Source of the DNA: Halobacteriales archaeon YIM A00013
Lineage (GTDB): Archaea > Halobacteriota > Halobacteria > Halobacteriales > Haloarculaceae
Assembly (NCBI GenBank): GCA_025041195.1
Contig: JAKCFM010000002.1
Location: forward strand, 248,001-312,000
DNA: 64,000 nt
Reading direction: 5' to 3'
Positions 30,472-62,322 of the stretch are shown here, piece after piece (the first letter of the stretch is position 1; each line of letters starts with the position of its first letter). Below the pieces are notes generated by a model that searched no databases, was not told where the DNA came from, and worked only from the letters and a program-made list of their open reading frames with translations. A program made the translations under genes and the position numbers.

Positions 30472-30731
30472 ACACAGTGTCGGCCGTCACCGAGGTAAAG
30501 CTACGGTTGACGGTGACCGATCTGCATTTGGTCGTGTCCGTCCGAAAAATCAGCGCTGAACGGACGGTTCCCAGTGGTTTCGAATCGCCGACGGAGTGCA
30601 TATATTTTCGATCGTAGTTTGTCAATGTCAAATAATAGAGCGAGTATAGGGGGAGTAAACCGGTGATAATCTGATATCCACTGAAGCCAGGAACAGAGTA
30701 CACTTTTCCGATTGGACAGTGATCCTCAGCT

Positions 30732-31760
30732 ATGATCCGGGATGCTCGGGTGTTGCGAGCTGGGTTCGTTCCGCGGGAGATCGAGCACCGGGACGCCGAG
30801 CTCAACCATCTTTCTAGCGTGTTCGAGCCGATCAAGGCTGGTGATCCCGCTGACACAGCACTGGTGACCGGGCCGAGCGGGGCTGGCAAGACGTGTCTCT
30901 CGAAGTTCGTCACCGAACGGCTGCGCGAGGAGGTGCTGGCTATCGAAACGACCTACATCAACTGCTGGCGCAACTACACGCGATTTCGGGTGTTCTATCA
31001 GTTGCTCGATGATCTGGGTGAGACGATCGACATTCACCGGCAATCGACGCCACACGACGAGCTGATCGCCCGACTCCAGAACTACGATGGCCCGCGGCGG
31101 ATCGTCATTCTCGACGAGGCGGACCAGCTGGAGGATCCGTCCGTGTTGTACGATCTACACAGTCTGAATCGATTTGCGATCATCTGTATCGCCAACCGGG
31201 AGACCGAGCTGATGAGTCACGTTGACGATCGGCTCCGCAGTCGCCTCCAGTCTAGCGAGCACATTCGCATGGAGAAGTATCACCACGAGCAGCTCACAGA
31301 CATCCTGCAAGCACGCGTTCGGTGGGGGCTTGATCCCGAGGTGATCACGGACGACCAGCTCGCCACGATCGCAAACAGTGCCGCGGGTGATGCGCGCCTG
31401 GCGATCGGTATTCTTCGGGCGGCAGCAAGCGGGGCAGCCCGGGAGAACCGCGAGCGAATCACCGACGAGTTGCTCGACCGAGCGGCCACTGATGCACAGG
31501 CACAGCTCCACCAGCGGAGTCTCGATTCGCTGACGCCACACCAGCAGACGGTGTACGACATCGTTCGAGCGCACGAACCGCTGAGTCCCAGCGAGATTTA
31601 TGAGCACTACACTGCAACGGTCGATGACCCGCGGACGAAACGCACGGTCAGAACGTATCTTCAGAAGATGGTGCAGTACAATCTGCTCGTCGCTGATGGC
31701 GCAAGCCGCGACCGGGAGTACGCACTCATTGATTCGGCGGCCGTCTCAACGCCGACGTGA
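30732..31760 (+). CDS. Orc1/Cdc6-like AAA+ ATPase (module copy 1)
   Basis: This 342-residue ATPase has Walker A (GPSGAGKT, residues 47-54), Walker B (VILDEADQ, Asp128-Glu129), sensor-1 region CIANRETEL, sensor-2-type GDARLAIGILRAA, and a C-terminal winged helix (SLTPHQQTVYDIV to KMVQYNLLVADG). It is shorter than chromosomal Orc1/Cdc6 origin proteins and lacks a long N-terminal extension. It matches the protein at 56050-57078 in length residue for residue and in most of the sequence. In that second copy it is directly followed by the RecA-like, helical and PolB2 genes; here about 3.9 kb of foreign genes intervene. A role in loading or recruiting the module on DNA, rather than origin firing, is inference; no origin repeats were seen nearby. 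Confidence 0.88.
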   Translation: MIRDARVLRAGFVPREIEHRDAELNHLSSVFEPIKAGDPADTALVTGPSGAGKTCLSKFVTERLREEVLAIETTYINCWRNYTRFRVFYQLLDDLGETIDIHRQSTPHDELIARLQNYDGPRRIVILDEADQLEDPSVLYDLHSLNRFAIICIANRETELMSHVDDRLRSRLQSSEHIRMEKYHHEQLTDILQARVRWGLDPEVITDDQLATIANSAAGDARLAIGILRAAASGAARENRERITDELLDRAATDAQAQLHQRSLDSLTPHQQTVYDIVRAHEPLSPSEIYEHYTATVDDPRTKRTVRTYLQKMVQYNLLVADGASRDREYALIDSAAVSTPT

Positions 31761-35347: not shown

Positions 35348-35587
35348 CTATTTCATGCCACTATTGCCTGTCAGCTACCTGCCCTACCGTACTCGTGGAG
35401 GTTAGGACCCACATGTAAAATACGGCATGAGACCCCATTATGAGGAAATCACCCAACAATCGGGAGGTGTCTCCTGCGCTTCTACATCGGTCACGGAGCT
35501 CCAGACGTTCCAATCGGAATCTCTGAAAATCAACTACAGGGTCTATTAGCAGTGCATAGACCCGTACGTGGATGAGCAGCCGTTTCA

Positions 35588-35644
35588 TGAAATCCCAGAA
35601 ACGACACGCCGTCGCTTATTCCCGAGCGCAGCGTTATCGCAACC
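35588..35644 (+). promoter_or_regulatory. Conserved promoter block of the RecA-like gene (module copy 1)
   Basis: The 57 bp before the ATG at 35645 match the 57 bp before the second copy (57158-57214) almost base for base, with no length change. Shared blocks are CCAGAAACGACACGCC, a TATA-like CGCTTA(T/A)T about 27-31 bp before the ATG, and GTTATC just before it. The spacing predicts a leaderless transcript. Sequence upstream of this block differs between the copies, so the conservation marks a functional boundary. Confidence 0.65.
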
Positions 35645-36448
35645 ATGAACGATACCAACGGCTCCGATCGACGGCTTGCAGCGTCACAGCCGACTGCAGG
35701 AGCGACGCGTAATCGAGCGCTGTGCAGCGACGGATCGGTACCAGACGGTGCGACAGTGTTTCCAACGCTTGCGCCGGAGGTGACGCTCCTTGATGGCGAC
35801 GGTGACCGGATCGTTGCGCCGCTACAGTCGCTCGTTGTCGATCATCTGTTGTTGAACGATGGCCCGGCGTTCTGGATCGACGTTCACGGCTACGCCACGA
35901 CGACACAGTTCGCCCGGATCGCACCCAGTCGACAGCTGCTTGATCGCGTGCACGTCGCGCGTGGATTCACCCCCTACCAGCATTACAGCGTCTGCTGCGA
36001 TCTTCCGGCGGCGATTGCGGCCCATTCCGAGGAGCCAGCGCTGATCGTCGCGCCGGCACTGGACGCCCATTACCAGCACGAGGACACGCTCGCGACGGAG
36101 CAGGCACAGACGCTGCTGGGTCGTGTGCTCGCACGGCTGCGCCGATGTGCCAGAGTGTACGACGTGCCCGTGCTCGTTGGACGCACCACCAGCAGTTCGG
36201 CCACCGAGCCGATCGCAACGATCGCTGATCGACAGTTGCGCTGTGAGCAAACGCCCATGGGCCCACAGTTCGTCGCTGACGAATTCGAAACCACGCTGTA
36301 TCCCGTCGGCGATGGGTTCTATCAGACGACCTTCGCCTACTGGCGGGCACTGCTGGCCACACGTGCCAGACAAATTGACGACATGCAGCCAACCGCCAGA
36401 CCGAGGACGCCGGATCCACTCAGCGCACTCCAGCACGGGGGACGATAA
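35645..36448 (+). CDS. RecA/RadA-fold protein without Walker A (module copy 1)
   Basis: The 267-residue protein aligns along the RadA core: AFWIDVHGYATTTQFARIAP occupies the place of the RadA strand and catalytic-Glu loop, then LLDRVHVARGFT, LIVAPALDAHYQHED, VLARLRRCARVYDVPVLVG and TLYPVGDGFYQTT follow in RadA order. No GxxxxGK(T/S) is present and the catalytic Glu position is not conserved, so ATP hydrolysis is unlikely. Inactivated RecA homologues linked to PolB2 polymerases have, as I recall, been described in archaea and compared with bacterial ImuA, so an accessory role in damage-tolerant synthesis is plausible inference. It is two bases from the helical-protein gene. Confidence 0.75.
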   Translation: MNDTNGSDRRLAASQPTAGATRNRALCSDGSVPDGATVFPTLAPEVTLLDGDGDRIVAPLQSLVVDHLLLNDGPAFWIDVHGYATTTQFARIAPSRQLLDRVHVARGFTPYQHYSVCCDLPAAIAAHSEEPALIVAPALDAHYQHEDTLATEQAQTLLGRVLARLRRCARVYDVPVLVGRTTSSSATEPIATIADRQLRCEQTPMGPQFVADEFETTLYPVGDGFYQTTFAYWRALLATRARQIDDMQPTARPRTPDPLSALQHGGR

Positions 36449-36450
36449 GG

Positions 36451-36741
36451 ATGGGACGCACCAATCCCACCTACCGCGATCTGTTTAGCTCGCTTGCGGA
36501 TCGCTGGGCAACGTTCCGACGAGCGCTCCGGTCGCGCGATCAACCACGGTTCGATCAGTTGTTCGACTACGCCCGCGAACACGCTGACGCCAGTGGCCTG
36601 TTGAACCACCAGGAGCCGCTGCTCCCTGCGCTGGTCAGCATCGATCTCGAACAGGAACGCCGGCTCGATGAGCACGAACGGCGACTGGCACTGGTTGAGC
36701 AGCGACTTGCTGACAGTGAATCCGGAGACGAAGAAGACTGA
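36451..36741 (+). CDS. 96-aa helical protein of the PolB2 module (copy 1)
   Basis: The protein begins MGRTNPTYRDLFSSLADRW and is predicted all-helical; the C-terminal third (about residues 65-90) is a charged heptad-like coiled coil rich in Glu/Arg, ending in acidic residues. It matches the 97-aa protein at 58030, diverging mainly after residue 80. It starts two bases after the RecA-like gene, so the two are surely co-translated. A bridging or tethering subunit is likely but unproven. Two broken relics of the same gene are at 37701-37793 and 53884-53979. Confidence 0.8.
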   Translation: MGRTNPTYRDLFSSLADRWATFRRALRSRDQPRFDQLFDYAREHADASGLLNHQEPLLPALVSIDLEQERRLDEHERRLALVEQRLADSESGDEED

Positions 36742-38550: not shown

Positions 38551-38634
38551 ATGAGACCCCCCAGCGAATGCACAGTCACTCGATTGAGCCGGCCAGCAAC
38601 CACAGAACGCCACAGTCACCTGACAGCGCACTAA
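38551..38634 (+). CDS. 27-codon upstream reading frame coupled to PolB2 copy 1
   Basis: ATG at 38551 opens a 27-codon frame that ends TAA at 38632-38634; the final A is the first base of the PolB2 ATG (TAATG). The start is at leaderless distance from the TATA-like box at 38521. It could be a leader peptide that couples translation, or simply leftover sequence of the insertion. It has no counterpart in copy 2, where the helical-protein gene overlaps the PolB2 start instead. Confidence 0.4.
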   Translation: MRPPSECTVTRLSRPATTERHSHLTAH

Positions 38635-40775
38635 TGGCCTACACGTTCGACTTTCTCGACGACGGTCGCGTACTGGCGTGGGAGCTCACAGCCGACGGCG
38701 TCGACTACACAGTCAAGACCGGATACGCGCCCAGATTTTTCGTTGGGCCCCGCTCGCCGAAGACCGATGTCGATCTCGACCCTCTCAAGGAACTCTACGA
38801 GAACCATCCGGACGTCGTCGCCGTCGAACGCCTCGAACGTCGGCCAGGCTTTCGTCGTGAGCACGAATCCGTGCTGGCGATCGACGCCACCCACGTTGGT
38901 GCAATCGCTTCGCTTGCCGAACAGGCACGACAGCTACCTGCCATTCCGATCGGTGACGTCACGACATTCAACGTCGATTTCTCCAGGGAGTTCCGATACT
39001 GTCTGGAAACTGGCCACGATCCAACGCCCGCTCGCAGTCCAACGACGCTCACGCTTTCCGTTTCACTCCCCGAAACCGCTGGCGAGAAATACGGTGAACT
39101 CACCGTCGGGGAGAAAACGGTGACTGGTGAACCCGAAACAATCCTTGCGGCCGTCCAGACGGCAATCGACGATCGTGACCCCGACGTACTCATCTGCTCA
39201 AGTGCTGACATCATCCCAACGCTCTACTCGATGGCCGACGACGACGCGCTCGACTGGTTCTCACTGAGTCGCTGGCCCGGTGTCGAGTACCAGCAGCTTG
39301 CGACGCGATCGTCGTACGCGAGCTACGGGCAGATCGGGCATTCGCCGGCGCGCTACAACGTTCCCGGTCGTGGTATTGTCGATTGCTCGAACTCGTTTTT
39401 TCTCGGTCAGGCAAATCTCGATGGGATTCTTGATCTGGTCACCAGGTCACGAAAGCCACTTCAGGAGGCTGCCTGGGCGTCAATCGGGAACATCCTGACG
39501 GCGATCCAGATCTGTGAAGCGCACGATCAAGGCGTGTTGGTTCCGAATCATTCCTGGCGACACGAGCAGTTCAAATCGATGGGCACGCTTCACAACGCCG
39601 ATAGGGGCGGATTCACCTTTGCGTCGGAGGTGGGCCTTCACGAGAACGTACACGAACTCGATTTCGCCAGTCTCTATCCGAATATCATCTGCACGCGGAA
39701 CGTCTCGCCGGACGTGATTCGATGTGACTGTCACGCTGATCGCAGCGACGTTCCAGAACTCGGCTATTCGATCTGTGAGGAAGCGGGCTATCTCGGTGAC
39801 GTGCTCCAGCCGCTGATCGACGATCGCCAGGCGATCAAGGCCGAGCTCCGGCGAGAGCGAACAAGCGACCATCCCGATGCAGATCGAATCGAGTCGTTGT
39901 CCGGTCGGTCGGATGCGCTGAAGTGGATACTCGTCGCCTGTTTCGGCTACCAGGGATTCAATAACGCGAAGTTCGGACGCATCGAGTGCCACGAGGCGAT
40001 CAACGCGTTCGCTCGCGAGATCCTCCTCACCGCCAAAGACCACCTTGAGGCCGGTGGCTGGCGGGTCGTTCACGGCATCGTCGATTCGATCTGGGTGACA
40101 CCAGATCCAGACGCTGCTGACCAGCAACCGCTCGAAGAGATCGCCGCGACGGTTACCGAGGCCGTGGGCATCAAACTGGAGTATGAGGGCGAATTCGACT
40201 GGGTGGCGTTCGTCCCACAGCGCAACAGCGATGCCGGGGCCTTGACGAAATATTTCGGCAAGCACGCCGACAGAGACGAGTTCAAAATCAGGGGGATTGA
40301 GGCCAGACAGCGCTCGACGCCGTCGTTCATCGAATCGTTTCAAACCGAGTGTCTGGACTGTCTCGACAGGACCCGCTCTCCCGAGGCCGTGATCGGTGTG
40401 CTTGAGCGCGCAATTGCTCGGCTTCGGCGTGGCGACGTCGATCCCGCCGAACTCGTCGTCCGGAACCGAGTCTCAAAGCCAGCTAACGCTTACAGTCAGT
40501 ACACCACAAATGTCGCAGCACTCGAACGGGCTCGCGACCAAGGACTCACGATTCATCCCGGCCAGGACGTTCGGTATGTAGTCGTGAATGATGACAAACA
40601 ATCGCGCGACCGCGTGGCGCTCGCTCACGAAGCGCTGGATCGATACGACGCCGAGTACTACGTCACCGAACTCGTGCGAGCCACAGAGAGCATTCTCTCG
40701 CCGTTGGGGTGGAAACGAGACCGAATCCAAGCAGAGTTAGAAGGGACCGAGGAAGTAGACCTCAGGAGCTTTTGA
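38634..40775 (+). CDS. polB2: PolB2-type family B DNA polymerase (module copy 1)
   Basis: The 713-residue protein has the family B palm: motif A LDFASLYPNII (Asp343), motif B LKWILVACFGYQG (Lys430) and motif C GIVDSIWV (Asp484). Both catalytic Asps that bind metals survive, but the first Asp of the usual DTD is Ile and the NSxYG part of motif B is changed. The N-terminal exonuclease region (TLTLSVSL; DPDVLICSSAD) has lost the exonuclease acids, so proofreading is absent. These traits define PolB2, an archaeal polymerase linked to damage tolerance. It equals copy 2 in length. Its last codons and TGA (40773-40775) lie inside the degenerate terminal CRISPR repeat at 40768-40799. The gene is cut off from its partner genes by a 1.9-kb insertion. 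Confidence 0.9.
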   Translation: MAYTFDFLDDGRVLAWELTADGVDYTVKTGYAPRFFVGPRSPKTDVDLDPLKELYENHPDVVAVERLERRPGFRREHESVLAIDATHVGAIASLAEQARQLPAIPIGDVTTFNVDFSREFRYCLETGHDPTPARSPTTLTLSVSLPETAGEKYGELTVGEKTVTGEPETILAAVQTAIDDRDPDVLICSSADIIPTLYSMADDDALDWFSLSRWPGVEYQQLATRSSYASYGQIGHSPARYNVPGRGIVDCSNSFFLGQANLDGILDLVTRSRKPLQEAAWASIGNILTAIQICEAHDQGVLVPNHSWRHEQFKSMGTLHNADRGGFTFASEVGLHENVHELDFASLYPNIICTRNVSPDVIRCDCHADRSDVPELGYSICEEAGYLGDVLQPLIDDRQAIKAELRRERTSDHPDADRIESLSGRSDALKWILVACFGYQGFNNAKFGRIECHEAINAFAREILLTAKDHLEAGGWRVVHGIVDSIWVTPDPDAADQQPLEEIAATVTEAVGIKLEYEGEFDWVAFVPQRNSDAGALTKYFGKHADRDEFKIRGIEARQRSTPSFIESFQTECLDCLDRTRSPEAVIGVLERAIARLRRGDVDPAELVVRNRVSKPANAYSQYTTNVAALERARDQGLTIHPGQDVRYVVVNDDKQSRDRVALAHEALDRYDAEYYVTELVRATESILSPLGWKRDRIQAELEGTEEVDLRSF

Positions 40776-40928
40776 CCCTACGAGGATACGTCTGGAAACA
40801 GGCACAACCCTCACGACAACATCTTTGGCCCAGCTTCGACCCCACAAGGGTGCATCTGTAACGCAACGACAACGACTAACATCCGGTAGCTTTTTGAGGC
40901 TTCGACCCCACAAGGGTGCATCTGTAAC
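40768..40928 (-). CRISPR. CRISPR array 1 remnant (two repeats plus degenerate terminal repeat)
   Basis: Two identical 30-nt repeats lie at 40833-40862 and 40899-40928. A degenerate 32-nt version at 40768-40799 overlaps the end of PolB2. Spacers are 33 and 36 nt. On the plus strand the repeat starts GCTTCGACCCCACAAGGG and ends CTGTAAC; its complement ends GGGTCGAAGC, like halophile type I-B repeats. Orientation (minus strand, leader at right) follows from the degenerate repeat at the left end. No cas gene is next to it; its repeat differs from array 2 in the middle and at the far end. Confidence 0.85.
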
Positions 40929-41100
40929 AACCGTCCATATTGAGGTTACAAGCCCTATTATGGAAGATGTGGGTCTGTCGTTTCCGTCGACCCTCAATTC
41001 TGGGTCTCCCCCCGGGGGGTCGACGGAACCCTATCGTACTTTCTTCCCCCCGTCGGGTCTGGTTTGGAAATGTTCTTTTTCCACTTTCACGGAGGATTGG
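40929..41100 (-). promoter_or_regulatory. Leader of CRISPR array 1 with conserved hairpin
   Basis: Starting 53 nt from the last repeat is a 47-nt inverted repeat (40982-41028) with a perfect 12-bp stem, TTCCGTCGACCC pairing with GGGTCGACGGAA, and a loop holding CCCCCCGGG. Array 2 has the same element at the same distance. On the minus strand the 53 nt between include an AT-rich patch (ccataatagg, about 40953-40962). The leader's outer limit is not defined. Confidence 0.65.
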
Positions 41101-41543
41101 AGTATCCCCCTCGGTATATGGCGGGGTGCCTACTCTTGGCCTGAAGGGTTCGCATCCCCCACAACGAATGGGTATAGGTCTGTAATTTCCGGGACCTCGT
41201 CGAGTACCTGCTCTGTGTCCCAACCGCCGCTACTTCTGCGAGCCGGATGCTGTCTATGCATCTCTTTTCCCCTCGTCCAGCGGACGCTGGGTGAGCTGTA
41301 CGTCCTATGATTCCCTACAGCCGCCAGCTGCCCGAGGCTGGACCTCACGGGCAAGGGAGCTTGGTGACTCCGGGTAGGCTCGATGTCGATAGCATCAATC
41401 GACACCGCGTGGCGAAGCTACCGCGTCCCGCCAACTGACATATAGCCAGCAACGGTCACAGAAACCTTCGCTCGTATACCTCATTAGATTTCTTGCCACT
41501 TGCTACCATTGAGCATTATACTATAGTAGGCCGACTAGCCTCT
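41101..41543. other. Gene-free stretch between array 1 leader and TnpB
   Basis: No reading frame here looks coding. From about 41310 the sequence is rich in short GC hairpins and may be the left end of the TnpB-bearing element. In a typical type I-B locus cas6 would begin in this area; no cas remnant could be recognised. Confidence 0.4.
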
Positions 41544-55655: not shown

Positions 55656-56049
55656 TATTCTCTATATCCTGGGCCAAAATATAATACCAACAATTATCAC
55701 ACCTCACATAGGTTTGTACTTCTAATGCCGGACAGATCTGCGCTCTGTATCCGACCTGGGGCATCGCTCACATCGATTCCATTCGGTGTAGTGGTTCCAG
55801 ATTCCATCTGGATTCAGCGGTTCGTGGTCTCAAATGTTATGGCGACGACGATCGGAACAGATCGTTAGTAGATGAATATGTTGAATTGATGATTGCTTAT
55901 GATATCTAGGAGAGTAAAGTGACTGGCGACTATATTACTATTAAATTTGACCAATATGCATTCAGCCGCTAATTAAATAGCTACAAAATAGCCCATAGAA
56001 GGGGTTTTTAAGAGGATATGCTTATTTGGCCGGATAGAAATTGTTAGAT
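55656..56049. promoter_or_regulatory. AT-rich region upstream of Orc gene copy 2
   Basis: No gene is seen. The last 80 bases contain ggtttttaagagg (TATA-like, about 56002-56014) and cttattt (about 56021-56027); the second lies about 25-30 bp before ATG 56050 and is the likely promoter of the four-gene module. No origin-type repeats were found. Confidence 0.45.
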
Positions 56050-57078
56050 ATGATCAGAGATGCTCGAGTGCTACGGGCCGGGTTCGTCCCTCGAGAAATC
56101 GAGCATCGGAATGCCGGGCTCAATCATCTTTCCAGTGTCTTTGAACCGATCAAGAGTGGTGAACCTGCTGACACAGCTCTGGTGACTGGTCCTAGTGGGG
56201 TGGGAAAGACGTGTCTCTCGAAGTTCGTTTCCGAACGGTTGCGTGAGGAGGTACTGGACGTCGAAACCACCTACATCAACTGCTGGCGCAACTACACGCG
56301 ATTTCGCGTTCTGTATCAGATTCTGGAGGATCTCGGGGAAACGATCGACATTCACCGGCAATCAACTCCTCATGATGAACTGATTGCAAGAATAGAATCG
56401 TACGACGGCCCCCAACGAATAATCATTCTTGATGAGGCCGACCAGCTCGAAGATCCATCGATCCTATACGATCTCCATAGCCTGGATCGATTTGCGATCA
56501 TCTGCATAGCGAATCGAGAGACAGAACTAATGTCTCACGTCGATGACCGACTCCGCAGTCGGCTACAGTCAAGCGAGCATGTTTGCCTGGAAAAATACCA
56601 CGACGAACAGCTCATCGATATCCTTCAGGCCCGAGTTCGGTGGGGGCTCGAGCCCGATGTGATTTCTAACGACCAACTCGCGACGATCGCGAATAGTGCG
56701 GCTGGGGACGCCCGCCTAGCGATCGGCACGCTCCGATCAGCTGCAAGTGCAGCAACTCGAGAAAATTGCGATCGGATTACTGACGAACTGCTCCAACAAG
56801 CAGCGACTGACGCCCAAGACCAACTCCATCAACGGAGTCTCGACTCGTTGACGCCACACCAGCAGTCCGTTTACGCCATCGTTCGCGAGCATGAGCCACT
56901 AAGTCCTGGTTCTATCTACGATCGCTATACGGACAGAGTTGACGAGCCCCGGACGAAACGCACGGTCAGAACGTATCTGCAAAAGATGGTTCAGTACAAT
57001 CTGTTGGTTGCCGACGGATCAAGTCGTAATCGCGAATATGCACTCGTCGATTCAGCCGTCGTCTCAACACCTCCCTGA
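56050..57078 (+). CDS. Orc1/Cdc6-like AAA+ ATPase (module copy 2)
   Basis: At 342 residues it matches copy 1 without length change. It has Walker A GPSGVGKT (residues 47-54), Walker B IILDEADQ (Asp128-Glu129), sensor-2 region GDARLAIGTLRSA and the C-terminal winged helix (LTPHQQSVYAIVREHEPLSPG). ATG 56050 aligns with copy 1; the TTG at 56041 does not. The DNA differs from copy 1 more in third positions than in protein, suggesting selection on the product since duplication. The next gene (RecA-like) starts 136 bp later with its own promoter block, and the run continues to the PolB2 gene and the CRISPR array. Confidence 0.88.
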   Translation: MIRDARVLRAGFVPREIEHRNAGLNHLSSVFEPIKSGEPADTALVTGPSGVGKTCLSKFVSERLREEVLDVETTYINCWRNYTRFRVLYQILEDLGETIDIHRQSTPHDELIARIESYDGPQRIIILDEADQLEDPSILYDLHSLDRFAIICIANRETELMSHVDDRLRSRLQSSEHVCLEKYHDEQLIDILQARVRWGLEPDVISNDQLATIANSAAGDARLAIGTLRSAASAATRENCDRITDELLQQAATDAQDQLHQRSLDSLTPHQQSVYAIVREHEPLSPGSIYDRYTDRVDEPRTKRTVRTYLQKMVQYNLLVADGSSRNREYALVDSAVVSTPP

Positions 57079-57157
57079 TTCCGGAAGCTGATTTCTGAAA
57101 TGGAATATTGGAGAATTCACTGTCGTAGCAAGCGCTCAGCGATGATCAGCTGTCACC

Positions 57158-57214
57158 GGAAATTCCAGAAACGACACGCCTCCGCTTAATCCCGAGTGCA
57201 GTGTTATCTCAACC
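57158..57214 (+). promoter_or_regulatory. Conserved promoter block of the RecA-like gene (module copy 2)
   Basis: This matches 35588-35644 of copy 1 with identical spacing to the ATG (54 bp from AATYCCAGAAACGAC to the start codon). The TATA-like CGCTTAAT is about 27-31 bp before the ATG. In this copy the block lies in the 136-bp gap behind the Orc gene, so the RecA-like, helical and PolB2 genes can be expressed apart from Orc. Confidence 0.65.
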
Positions 57215-58027
57215 ATGAACGATACCAACGTCTCTGATCGACGGCTGGCAGTTTCACAGCCTGCCTCTGGAGCGAAGCGTAATCGCGATTTACGTCGTGA
57301 CGCATCGTTACCAGACGGCGCGACAGTGTTTCCGACGCTCGACGCAGGTGTGACGCTACTTGATGGTGACAACCGGGTCGTCGCGCCGATCCAGTCGCTG
57401 GTGATCGATCATTTGCTGATGAATGATGGTACGGCATTCTGGATCGACGTTCACGGTTACGCCACCACAACACAGTTCACACGGATTGCTCCCAGCCAGC
57501 AGCTTCTCGATCGCGTCAAGGTGGCGCGGGGATTCACTCCGTTTCAGCACTACAGTGTTGTCTGTGATCTTCCAGTAGCCATCGATAGCCACCCCGACGA
57601 TCCAGCACTGATCGTCGCACCGGCACTGGACGCTCACTATCGAAACGAGGACACGCTCGCTACCGAGCAGGCGGAGACACTCTTGGGTCGTGTGCTTGCG
57701 CGACTGCGCCGGTATGCCAGAGCGTACGACGTGCCTGTGCTCGTTGGACGCACCACCAGCAATCTAGCCACCGAGCCGATCGCAACGATGGCTGACCGGC
57801 AGATCCACTGTGAGCAAACCTCGATGGGGCCGCAGTTCGTCGGTGACGAGTTCGAAACGACGCTGTATCCCGTCGGCGATGGTCTGTATCAGACGACCTT
57901 TGCCTACTGGCGGGCGCTGCTGGCCGCTAGGGCCAGACGGGTCGGTACACCGATCGACGACAGCCAACCGACCGTCCGACCGAAGGCACCAAAGCCCCTC
58001 GCAACACTCCAGCATGGAGGCCGATAA
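57215..58027 (+). CDS. RecA/RadA-fold protein without Walker A (module copy 2)
   Basis: The 270-residue protein matches copy 1: AFWIDVHGYATTTQFTRIAP in place of the RadA ATPase loops, LLDRVKVARGFTPFQHY, LIVAPALDAHYRNED and VLARLRRYARAYDVPVLVG. The P-loop is absent here too, so loss preceded the duplication. Differences cluster at the N-terminus and in a C-terminal tail three residues longer. It is two bases from the helical-protein gene. Confidence 0.75.
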   Translation: MNDTNVSDRRLAVSQPASGAKRNRDLRRDASLPDGATVFPTLDAGVTLLDGDNRVVAPIQSLVIDHLLMNDGTAFWIDVHGYATTTQFTRIAPSQQLLDRVKVARGFTPFQHYSVVCDLPVAIDSHPDDPALIVAPALDAHYRNEDTLATEQAETLLGRVLARLRRYARAYDVPVLVGRTTSNLATEPIATMADRQIHCEQTSMGPQFVGDEFETTLYPVGDGLYQTTFAYWRALLAARARRVGTPIDDSQPTVRPKAPKPLATLQHGGR

Positions 58028-58029
58028 CG

Positions 58030-58323
58030 ATGGGCCGCACTAATCCAACGTACCGTGATCTGCTCAATTCTCTCGAAGATCGCTGGGCTGAGTTCCGACG
58101 AGCGCTACGCACGCGCGATCAACCTCAGTTCGATCAGTTGTTCAACTACGCCCGCGACCACGCCGATGCCAGTGGCCTATTAAATCACCAGGAGCCGCTG
58201 CTCCCCGCGTTGATCAGCATCGATCTCGAACAGGAATCACGATTGGATGAGCACGAACAAAGAATCGAAGCCCTGGAAGCTTCGATCGGGGAAGATCTGG
58301 AGACATCTGATCGTGGCCTATAA
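58030..58323 (+). CDS. 97-aa helical protein of the PolB2 module (copy 2)
   Basis: It begins MGRTNPTYRDLLNSLEDRW and has the helical core (FDQLFNYARDHADASGLLNH) and coiled-coil tail (LDEHEQRIEALEASIGEDLE). It overlaps the PolB2 GTG start by 11 bases, so translation is coupled. This overlap probably shows the ancestral module layout, which insertion disturbed in copy 1. Confidence 0.82.
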   Translation: MGRTNPTYRDLLNSLEDRWAEFRRALRTRDQPQFDQLFNYARDHADASGLLNHQEPLLPALISIDLEQESRLDEHEQRIEALEASIGEDLETSDRGL

Positions 58324-60454
58324 ATTCGACTTCCTAGACGACGGTCGTGTGTTAGAGTGGGAGCTCACAGCCGATGGAGCCGACTATACAGTCCAAACCG
58401 GATACACACCTAGGTTTTTTGTCGGTGCTCGCTCGTCGTCTGTCGATGTGGCCCTCGAGGCCCTCGTTGAACTGTACGAGAACCACCCGGACGTTGCCGC
58501 CGTCGAACGCCTTGAGCGTCGGCCAGGCTTCCGTCGCCAGCACGAATCCGTGCTGGCGATCGACGCCACACACGTTGGTGCAGTCCCCACTCTTGCCGAA
58601 CAGGCACGACAGTTGCCTGCCATTCCGATCGGTGACGTCACGACGTTCAACGTCGATTACTCCAGGGAGTTCCGGTACTGTCTGGAAACTGATCACGATC
58701 CAACGCCCACCCGCAGTCCAACGACGCTCACGCTTTCCGTTTCGCTCCCCGAAACCGCTGGCGAGAAATACGGTGAACTCACCGTCGGGGAGAAAACGGT
58801 ATCTGGCGACCCCGCAACAATCCTTGCGGCCGTCCAGACGGCAATCGACGATCGCGACCCCGACGTACTCATCTGCTCAAGTGCTAATATCATCCCAACG
58901 CTCTACTCGATGGCCGACGACGACGCGATCGACTGGTTCTCACTGAGTCGTTGGCCTGACGTTGAGTATCAGCAGCTCGCGACGCGATCGTCGTACGCGA
59001 GCTACGGCCAGATTGGGCATTCGCCGGCGCGCTACAACGTTCCCGGTCGTGTTATCGTCGATTGCTCGAACTCGTTTTTTCTCGGGCAGGCGAATCTCGA
59101 TGGGATTCTCGATCTGGTCTCCCGGTCACGAAAGCCGCTTCAGGAGGCTGCCTGGGCATCGATCGGAAACATCCTGACGGCGATCCAGATCTGTGAGGCG
59201 CACTCACGAGACGTACTGGTTCCCAATCACTCCTGGCGACACGAGCAGTTCAAATCGATGGGAACGCTTCACAACGCCGACAGGGGAGGGTTCACCTTTG
59301 CGTCGGAGGTGGGCCTTCACGAGAACGTTCACGAACTCGATTTCGCCAGTCTCTATCCGAACATCATCTGCACGCGGAACGTCTCGCCGGACGTGATTCG
59401 GTGTGACTGTCACGCTGATCGCAGCGACGTGCCCGAACTCGGCTATTCGATCTGTGAGGAGGAGGGCTATCTCGTCGACGTGCTCCAGCCGCTGATCGAC
59501 GATCGCCAGGCGATCAAGGCCGAGCTCCGGCGGGAGCGAGCAAGCGACCATCCCGATGCAGATCGAATCGAGTCGTTGTCCGGTCGATCGGATGCGCTGA
59601 AGTGGATACTCGTCGCCTGCTTTGGCTATCAAGGGTTCAACAACGCGAAGTTCGGACGCATCGAGTGCCACGAAGCGATCAACGCGTTCGCTCGCGAAAT
59701 CCTCCTCACCGCCAAAGACCACCTTGAGGCCGGTGGCTGGCGGGTCGCTCACGGCATTGTCGATTCGATCTGGGTGAAACCAGAACCAGAAGCTGCTGAC
59801 CAGCAACCGCTGGAGGAGATCGCCGCGACGATCACTGATGACGTGGGCATTGAACTGGAGTATGAGGGCGAATTCGATTGGGTGGCGTTCGTGCCACAAC
59901 GCAACAGCGATGGCGGGGCCTTGACGAAATATTTCGGCAAGCACGCCAACAGAGATGAGTTCAAAATCCGGGGGATCGAGGCCAGACAGCGCTCGACCCC
60001 GCCGTTCATCGAGGCGTTTCAAACCGAGTGTCTAGACTGTCTCGACAGGACACGTTCCCCTCAAGCAGTGCTTGGGCTGCTCGAACGGGCTATTGCTCGC
60101 CTTCGGCGTGGCGACGTCGATCCCGCCGAACTCGTCGTCCGGAACCGAGTCTCAAAGCCAGTCAACGCCTACAGTCAGTACACCACAAATGTCGCAGCAC
60201 TCGAACGGGCTCGCGACCAAGGACTCACGATTCATCCCGGCCAGGACGTTCGATACGTGGTCGTAGACGACGAAAAGCGATCCCGAGATCGCGTGGCGCT
60301 GGCGCATGAATCTCCCGAGCGGTACGATGCATCGTACTACGTCACCGAACTCGTGCGAGCCACAGAGAGTATTCTCTCGCCGGTGGGATGGAAACGGGAG
60401 CAAATCCACGAAGAGTTAGAGGAGTCCGAGGAAGTAGACCTCAGGAGCTTTTGA
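58313..60454 (+). CDS. polB2: PolB2-type family B DNA polymerase (module copy 2)
   Basis: This 713-residue polymerase (GTG 58313, in line with ATG 38634 of copy 1) has the same active-site picture: LDFASLYPNII (Asp343), LKWILVACFGYQG (Lys430), GIVDSIWV (Asp484) and no exonuclease acids. The protein is nearly identical to copy 1 over most of its length, with more changes near the N-terminus and after residue 560. Retention of the two metal-binding Asps in both copies argues for activity, probably low-fidelity or damage-tolerant synthesis as reported for PolB2/Dpo2. Its SF-stop (60447-60454) is formed by the terminal CRISPR repeat. It ends the four-gene module. Confidence 0.9.
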   Translation: MAYKFDFLDDGRVLEWELTADGADYTVQTGYTPRFFVGARSSSVDVALEALVELYENHPDVAAVERLERRPGFRRQHESVLAIDATHVGAVPTLAEQARQLPAIPIGDVTTFNVDYSREFRYCLETDHDPTPTRSPTTLTLSVSLPETAGEKYGELTVGEKTVSGDPATILAAVQTAIDDRDPDVLICSSANIIPTLYSMADDDAIDWFSLSRWPDVEYQQLATRSSYASYGQIGHSPARYNVPGRVIVDCSNSFFLGQANLDGILDLVSRSRKPLQEAAWASIGNILTAIQICEAHSRDVLVPNHSWRHEQFKSMGTLHNADRGGFTFASEVGLHENVHELDFASLYPNIICTRNVSPDVIRCDCHADRSDVPELGYSICEEEGYLVDVLQPLIDDRQAIKAELRRERASDHPDADRIESLSGRSDALKWILVACFGYQGFNNAKFGRIECHEAINAFAREILLTAKDHLEAGGWRVAHGIVDSIWVKPEPEAADQQPLEEIAATITDDVGIELEYEGEFDWVAFVPQRNSDGGALTKYFGKHANRDEFKIRGIEARQRSTPPFIEAFQTECLDCLDRTRSPQAVLGLLERAIARLRRGDVDPAELVVRNRVSKPVNAYSQYTTNVAALERARDQGLTIHPGQDVRYVVVDDEKRSRDRVALAHESPERYDASYYVTELVRATESILSPVGWKREQIHEELEESEEVDLRSF

Positions 60455-61130
60455 CCTACAACGGTTCAACTGAAACCCTTGTGCGATTGCTTCGTCTGCG
60501 GTGTGTGTTGGGCTTCGACCCGACTAGGGTTCAACTGAAACACCAGTACTACTGGTCGCTCAAACCATGGGATTTGCTTCGACCCGACTAGGGTTCAACT
60601 GAAACTTTTCCCCTCCGCCGCTATATGGCTCTCGCCAATCTTGCTTCGACCCGACTAGGGTTCAACTGAAACGCTGAGTTCTGAGTCGTTCATGCTTCGC
60701 CTTTGTCGGCTTCGACCCGACTAGGGTTCAACTGAAACTGGGCAACGGAAATCTGTTGCTCACGCTCGAAGGTGCGCTTCGACCCGACTAGGGTTCAACT
60801 GAAACTGATCGATCATCGTTGCCAGTATTTGCGTACGGTGAGCTTCGACCCGACTAGGGTTCAACTGAAACCGTTTTGGAAGACGTGGGTCATCCAGACG
60901 TGCCAGAGGCTTCGACCCGACTAGGGTTCAACTGAAACAAGGAATGCGACTGGTGCCACTTCCAGGATGAGTGCGCTTCGACCCGACTAGGGTTCAACTG
61001 AAACCAATCCATCCGAGTCGACGTACTCGGTCGCTTCGCTTCGACCCGACTAGGGTTCAACTGAAACTCTCGTGCAGCGACGACACTCAGTCATCGCTGT
61101 GCTTCGACCCGACTAGGGTTCAACTGAAAC
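60447..61130 (-). CRISPR. CRISPR array 2, type I-B repeat (ten repeats plus degenerate terminal repeat)
   Basis: Ten identical 30-nt repeats start at 60512, 60576, 60643, 60709, 60776, 60842, 60909, 60975, 61038 and 61101; a degenerate 30-nt one occupies 60447-60476 and contains the PolB2 stop. The ten spacers are 33-37 nt. On the plus strand the repeat starts GCTTCGACCCGACTAGGG and ends CAACTGAAAC. Its complement begins GTTTCAG and ends GAAGC, the halophile I-B pattern. The degenerate end at left and cas genes at right place the leader at 61131 onwards, so transcription is on the minus strand toward PolB2. Confidence 0.97.
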
Positions 61131-61300
61131 CATTGGCGAATCGGCGGCCTCATACGGGTGATGCACATGCATCTCCATCAAGATTTCCATCGACCCCCAA
61201 TCTCCCCCAAACCCCCGGGGGGTCGATGAAACGATCTCAAAGCTGATGGCCACCGCCGGAACTTCGAGCGGAACCAGAAGATATCGGCGGGGGCTTGTCC
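61131..61300 (-). promoter_or_regulatory. Leader of CRISPR array 2 with conserved hairpin
   Basis: A 47-nt inverted repeat (61185-61231) begins 54 nt from the first repeat: TTCCATCGACCC pairs with GGGTCGATGAAA in 11 of 12 positions, with CCCCCGGG in the loop region. It has the same length and distance as in array 1. A smaller GATGCA/TGCATC repeat lies at 61160-61173. The leader's outer limit toward cas6 is not clear; the remaining stretch to 61510 shows no gene. Confidence 0.7.
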
Positions 61301-61563: not shown

Positions 61564-62322
61564 ATGAGAGTACTCATCGACCTGCAGGCAGAGATGGCTG
61601 CGTCCTACGATCCGGAGTACCACGGTCGGCTCCGGGCGCGTATCTGGGACGCCCTCCGTGACACGGCGTACGACGAACACGGTGTAGAGACACCTGGGTT
61701 CGTCTTCTCGAATCCATTCCCGTGGGGAGACCTCGAGGAGGGAGACGAACGCCACTTGCTCGTCGCCGCCTCACGCGAGGAGCAGTTAGCACACATCACG
61801 GCCGATCTCCTCGAGAATCCCGACGTACACGCGGGGGCGATGCCATTCCGCGTCACGGACGCAACGCCGATCGATCCAGATGTCGGCCCACCGGGCACCG
61901 AGGGCGTCCTTGAAACCGCGACCGGTGTGTACGCCGTTACGCCACCGCAATACCTCGAGAATCCTGACGAACACGACGACGAGACGTTCTGGCGACCGGA
62001 CCACGGGATGGAGGCGTTTTTCGAGCACGTGGAGACGCAACTTCAGCGCAATCATGACCGGTTCATGCCTGCGGGTGATCCGGGGCCGACGGAGGTTACC
62101 GAACCGCTGTTCGAGGAGTTCGAGTTGATCAAGACGTACTGGCTCGATGTGCAACTCTCCAGCGGAACGGAGTGGAAAGTCCTCGTCTCGAAGTGGCGCT
62201 TTCCCTATCGCGTGCGCGACGATCACCATCGCCGGCACCTCAACCTCGCACTAGACGTCGGCATTGGCCGCCGGACGCCGCTCGGCTTCGGCTTTCTCAA
62301 CAAACAACTCGACGAAGAATGA
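61564..62322 (+). CDS. cas6: Cas6, CRISPR pre-crRNA endoribonuclease
   Basis: The 252-residue protein has the Cas6 RAMP layout with the C-terminal glycine-rich loop VGIGRRTPLGFGFLNKQ and starts MRVLIDLQAEMAASYDPEYH. It cuts the repeat in array transcripts to make crRNAs with an 8-nt 5' handle; the last ten bases of both repeat types (GGGTCGAAGC) are identical, so it could process both arrays. It is the first cas gene and overlaps cas8b by four bases (ATGA at 62319). It reads away from the array across a shared 430-bp region. Confidence 0.9.
   Translation: MRVLIDLQAEMAASYDPEYHGRLRARIWDALRDTAYDEHGVETPGFVFSNPFPWGDLEEGDERHLLVAASREEQLAHITADLLENPDVHAGAMPFRVTDATPIDPDVGPPGTEGVLETATGVYAVTPPQYLENPDEHDDETFWRPDHGMEAFFEHVETQLQRNHDRFMPAGDPGPTEVTEPLFEEFELIKTYWLDVQLSSGTEWKVLVSKWRFPYRVRDDHHRRHLNLALDVGIGRRTPLGFGFLNKQLDEE

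Follow-up and report, generated by a model that had tools for sequence, protein, structure and literature searches.

Two polB2 genes followed by CRISPR arrays

The window, a stretch of 64,000 nt from Halobacteriales archaeon YIM A00013, lies within a 746-kb contig (C2) of a genome of three contigs and contains two polB2 genes, copies A and B, each followed by a CRISPR array (Table 1). Both copies are assigned to the PolB2 family by their DNA_pol_B domain and their position in the PolB2 tree. The dN/dS ratio between them is ~0.14, and purifying selection acts on both; their DNA similarity ends exactly at TGACC (40777/60456). The order of the cdc6-type gene and polB2 B is also found in a plasmid of Actinarchaeum halophilum. 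In the window, the cdc6-type gene (stretches 30728-31753 and 56046-57071) and a gene of 270 aa located 5' of polB2 (35571-36679 and 57141-58258) each occur in two copies with 77-80% DNA identity, and the replication module upstream of and including polB2 appears to be present twice as a whole. Motif C of the polymerase encoded by copy B reads GIVDSI, the usual form in B-family polymerases being DTDS, and Pfam searches found no exonuclease domain in this protein. No PolB2 relatives were found among the viral contigs searched. A B-family polymerase near an Orc/Cdc6 gene on a plasmid is also known from Halobacterium NRC-1, where the polB2 of pNRC200 is linked to an orc/cdc6 gene and is non-essential (PMC1906834). 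Unlike this and other haloarchaeal PolB2, the clade described here is at most ~69% identical to the remaining family members and has an I-B array behind it.

Table 1. Features of the two polB2 regions and their CRISPR arrays in the window.
Feature	Positions	Strand	Remarks
Paralogue of Orc1/Cdc6-type AAA gene	30732-31760		Paralogue of the gene at 56041..57078
polB2 copy A	38568..40775	+	735 aa, ends AGC TTT TGA; protein 91% identical to copy B
Degenerate terminal repeat, array A	40768..40799	-	8-nt overlap with polB2 stop end; GCTTTTGACCCTACGAGGATACGTCTGGAAAC
Oldest spacer, array A	40800..40832	-	32/33 nt identical to A. halophilum counterpart
Array A, intact part	40833..40928	-	Two repeats (40833, 40899), one spacer; repeat GCTTCGACCCCACAAGGGTGCATCTGTAAC
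Orc1/Cdc6-type AAA gene	56041..57078	+	In the replication module of polB2 B, upstream of the polymerase gene; Pfam AAA_22 and Cdc6_lid
polB2 copy B	58247..60454	+	ORF of 735 aa, ends AGC TTT TGA; Pfam DNA_pol_B 1.7e-22
Degenerate leader-distal terminal repeat, array B	60447..60476	-	8 outer nt (60447-60454) form the 3' end of polB2 with its stop; GCTTTTGACCTACAACGGTTCAACTGAAAC
Array B, intact repeats	60512..61130	-	10 type I-B repeats of 30 nt with spacers; repeat GCTTCGACCCGACTAGGGTTCAACTGAAAC
Leader side, array B	61131..61250	-	Similar leaders at other arrays of the genome
cas6, adjacent I-B locus	61564..62322	+	Pfam Cas_Cas6_C 2e-7

Both arrays are of the haloarchaeal type I-B, with 30-nt repeats of the GTTTCAG...GAAGC type and spacers of 33-37 nt. 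Rfam model CRISPR-DR24 matches them on the minus strand (array A above and array B slightly below the gathering score), and Rfam searches of the region returned nothing besides CRISPR repeats. Array B has a leader and an adjacent cas6, the gene after which lacks a Pfam match; a second array, ~10 kb away on the same replicon and not in contact with polB2, has the same repeat and leader. Like other haloarchaeal I-B arrays, including those of Haloferax and Haloarcula plasmids, the arrays combine these repeat and spacer lengths with a leader or leader-like motif and, at array B, with cas6 nearby. Array A differs in being a three-repeat remnant with a leader-like sequence, followed by a TnpB-like gene on the leader side. 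A palindrome (TCGACCC...GGGTCGA) is found in both leaders (40987-41026 and 61190-61225), ~60 nt from the first repeat. The non-coding stretch between leader A and the TnpB-like gene (41094-41480) shares 94-99% identity with the A. halophilum plasmid, compared with ~81-83% for the flanking genes, and has no Rfam match. Across the genome (contigs C1-C3), we counted five Cas6-like genes and over a dozen arrays of I-B type, with several arrays arranged as divergent pairs. Searches of phage and plasmid records for protospacers of the A and B spacers found none; the sole match was the oldest spacer, common to array A and A. halophilum.

The polB2 stop codon lies within the terminal repeat

The leaders lie to the right of both arrays, which places polB2 at the leader-distal end, convergent with the array. 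Together with the minus-strand CRISPR-DR24 matches and the position of cas6, this bears out the original prediction that the repeat overlapped by the gene is the leader-distal one. In A and B alike, the terminal repeat takes in the last 8 nt of polB2, so that the stop does lie inside the terminal repeat in both copies, as had been proposed; GACCTCAGGA directly precedes the repeat in each case. Both terminal repeats are outermost, are separated by one spacer from the next repeat (64-65 nt spacing), and have diverged mostly in their distal half, with both halves diverged in A. Degenerate terminal repeats are also present at most other arrays of the genome.

In whole-repeat alignments, the 30-nt stretch of B scored 40/60 against the repeat of its own array and the 32-nt stretch of A 36/60 when aligned with five types of I-B repeat, compared with a mean of 18.5 (sd 2.7, maximum 26) for the ends of 76 array-less PolB2 genes used as a control. 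The gene-side half alone, set against random window positions, gave p ~3e-4 for A and ~7e-3 for B. The repeat likeness of both polB2 ends thus exceeds chance. The gene end had been described as GCTT(C/T)GACC; this likeness holds, but the literal match does not, since the true end, GCTTTTGACC, is one base longer than GCTTCGACC and an indel is needed to align the two.

The PolB2 C-terminus across haloarchaea

Phe735, the last residue of both copies, corresponds to a conserved Phe/Tyr column in 79 PolB2 proteins, including those without an array. Most relatives continue for 1-7 variable residues after this position, and in several separate array-less lineages (L009, L059, L043/L064, L061, and L081) the stop follows it directly. 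In the PolB2 of a Halobaculum magnesiiphilum plasmid, which adjoins an I-B array, the C-terminus reads PSLGEFG, as it does in an array-less relative with 95% identity. A conserved Phe735, array-less genes that stop directly after it, and the unchanged Halobaculum C-terminus together argue against the suggested repeat origin of the C-terminus, for which we find no support; judging from these comparisons, the protein does not appear to be built from the repeat, and at most the stop codon could be.

The original prediction had named array-less PolB2 genes with the same end as the observation that would make the overlap a coincidence. None of 136 array-less PolB2 genes carries the GCTTTTGACC end, the nearest being L043 and L064, which end TTC TGA CCC. 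Array-less L043, L061, and L064 all end with Ser-Phe-TGA and have a common downstream flank, although L061 is placed elsewhere in the protein tree, and this common flank suggests that recombination has taken place where the gene ends.

Conservation of the junction

The joint end of gene and array is not confined to the window. The polB2 of A. halophilum plasmid CP071308, 82% identical to copy B, has the same end as A and B, and the terminal repeat behind it is identical to that of array A. A genome of the same genus (G183) contains a 99,700-base contig matching this plasmid, and among 292 haloarchaeal genomes the joint-end pattern was detected only in the genome studied here and in the A. halophilum-like one. 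In the tree of 79 PolB2, copies A and B and that of A. halophilum form one deep branch, to which a long branch of 0.41 changes per site leads. The three genes have inherited the junction from a common ancestor, and its presence in two paralogues and in the A. halophilum plasmid shows it to be old.

Within the last 200 nt of polB2, copy A and A. halophilum differ at 6 positions, compared with a mean of ~36 per 200-nt window elsewhere in the gene. As the terminal repeat and the oldest spacer are near-identical as well, the gene end, terminal repeat, and spacer have behaved as a block, either exchanged or kept between the two. The newer spacer and the repeat variants differ between A and A. halophilum; that the block was kept while the leader end turned over is expected from array polarity. 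The proposal that the shared end fixes the array's trailer beside the polymerase is therefore supported: the junction is common to both paralogues and A. halophilum, so the trailer stays next to the gene and travels with its 3' end.

Array trailers at other gene ends

We found no I-B array directly downstream of polB2 at any of 136 further haloarchaeal PolB2 loci, with a short flank at a few of them. Direct-repeat matches downstream of L022, L051, L223, and L240 were considered as CRISPR arrays and rejected as not array-like; those of L223 and L240 read as origin-like repeats. The H. magnesiiphilum plasmid gene (L190, 1134-3397) has an I-B trailer ~17-26 nt after its end. Its protein is ~50% identical to most other PolB2 and belongs to a second lineage, which adjoins an I-B trailer independently.

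Tight joins also occur with unrelated genes. On two Halomicrobium plasmids (NZ_CP039376 and NZ_CP044130), a convergent grpE-labelled gene has part of its stop codon inside the degenerate terminal repeat of an I-B array, comparable to polB2, with a gap of -1 nt; unlike in polB2, only one base, the G of TAG (TAG-CTTCGATC), is common to the gene and GCTTCGATC. The distance from trailer to convergent stop is 6 nt in Haloarcula pNG300, 27 nt at a Halorubrum CopG gene, and 46 nt at a Haloferax glycosyltransferase gene, and is larger in other annotated plasmids; the set is small and non-random, and these values are examples, not a rate. The grpE-labelled and pNG300 genes were considered as one family, which was rejected as blastp gave no match between them. 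Trailers seem often to lie close behind other genes, so that tight placement would not be peculiar to PolB2.

Origin of the junction

We consider it probable (roughly 70%) that a type I-B locus joined the edge of the polB2 module trailer-first and that ordinary decay of the terminal repeat did the rest. In an ancestor within the genus, the locus would have joined, trailer end first, the 3' edge of a plasmid module comprising cdc6, small ORFs, and polB2, at or beside the last polB2 codons. A few bases are common to both partners there (..AGC TTY in polB2, GCTTC.. in the repeat), which would explain the 8-nt overlap between gene and outermost repeat. On the array side, the gene-side half of the terminal repeat would then have drifted, since this half is not known to be needed, while PolB2 coding and the stop held the gene side. 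Spacer acquisition is not known to involve the outer half of a terminal repeat, nor crRNA formation to depend on it, and no spacer follows it; it may thus merge with a gene end at no cost to either. Arrays A and B would subsequently have grown apart, with turnover at the leader ends, while the junction stayed, its common bases held by purifying selection on both polB2 copies. We infer recombination at short homology as the route, with the TGA either having arisen from TTCGA by a small change or having been there already. Microhomology end joining has been described in Haloferax (PMC7521656), but the GCTT homology is too short to prove it here. Among the PolB2 found, the A/B/A. halophilum clade has no array-less member that would show the state before the join.

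Several other origins are conceivable. The repeat may simply be truncated, with GCTTTTGACC being plain PolB2 sequence that happens to resemble a repeat end. A Phe-TGA-CC end in array-less L043 and L064 fits such a coincidence, as does the gene-end 10-mer, which by itself is matched equally well in the same register at 2/103 other gene ends. Yet in A the likeness continues unbroken from the array side through GACCC as far as the stop codon (p ~3e-4), and in B the GCTT has stayed at precisely the 30-nt register, which makes chance an unlikely explanation. Somewhat less credible still is that the repeat supplied the C-terminus or the stop, the join having removed a tail of a few residues and TTCGACC having become TTT TGA CC. 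This would agree with the 1-7 extra residues of most relatives and with the TGA spanning the repeat's T/GA in both copies, but array-less lineages also stop after Phe735, the tail is variable, and the residues through Phe735 are those of the family, leaving only the stop as possibly repeat-derived.

The original prediction had also raised the reverse possibility, an array founded on the gene end. In that event, Cas1-Cas2 would have put a spacer at a repeat-like gene end that was copied into a repeat. The terminal repeat is indeed the oldest and lies on the gene. However, the repeats are of a common haloarchaeal I-B type (CRISPR-DR24) present in many plasmids without an adjoining polB2, and array B marks the outer boundary of a CRISPR-Cas locus of ordinary kind, in which cas6 lies beside the leader, with the same repeat and leader in the second array of the replicon, so that founding on polB2 is hardly to be expected. 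Of the earlier interpretation as a whole, the base sharing and the fixed trailer hold, whereas the repeat-derived C-terminus is not supported and founding on the gene end is unlikely.

Functional coupling has also been considered: polB2 might anchor the array, its stop freezing the divergent terminal repeat against array collapse, and/or antisense transcripts of the array might tune polB2. In favour of such coupling are the two independent PolB2 lineages at I-B trailers, the retention of the junction in all three genes of the clade, the proposal that divergent terminal repeats guard against collapse (PMC8047081), and the outcome of a simple motif scan, in which no strong minus-strand terminator was found between array and gene (nearest match within polB2, 60277-60292). 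Set against this, 136 other PolB2 loci have no adjoining array, other genes lie equally close, and terminal repeats diverge without any gene beside them, and we regard such coupling as very improbable. We give scarcely better odds to the broader idea that the stop pins the terminal repeat against collapse and that a functional link exists between PolB2 and the I-B system, such as antisense control or the repair of gaps once a spacer has been inserted.

Implications

Degenerate leader-distal terminal repeats are well described in Streptococcus thermophilus, S. agalactiae, and others (PMC8047081, PMC4466440). Those described here are alike in that the outermost repeat has diverged mainly in its leader-distal half and that it and the oldest spacer are stable while the leader end turns over, but differ in that a convergent gene uses the diverged half for its last codons and stop. 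The junction has the look of an immune locus whose edge came to lie tightly against a gene end, as is also seen with unrelated genes, and calls for no new mechanism: it is neat but ordinary, and the odds of a functional link are small. If true, a link between PolB2 and type I-B systems would explain the two separate PolB2 lineages at I-B trailers, and the finding would matter more if such a link were shown. As it stands, the locus is a clear case of a protein gene defining the edge of a CRISPR array, and a warning that terminal repeats and last spacers are easily overlooked where gene annotation covers them. The unit of gene end, terminal repeat, and oldest spacer provides a marker for the settling and moving of accessory CRISPR loci on haloarchaeal megaplasmids.
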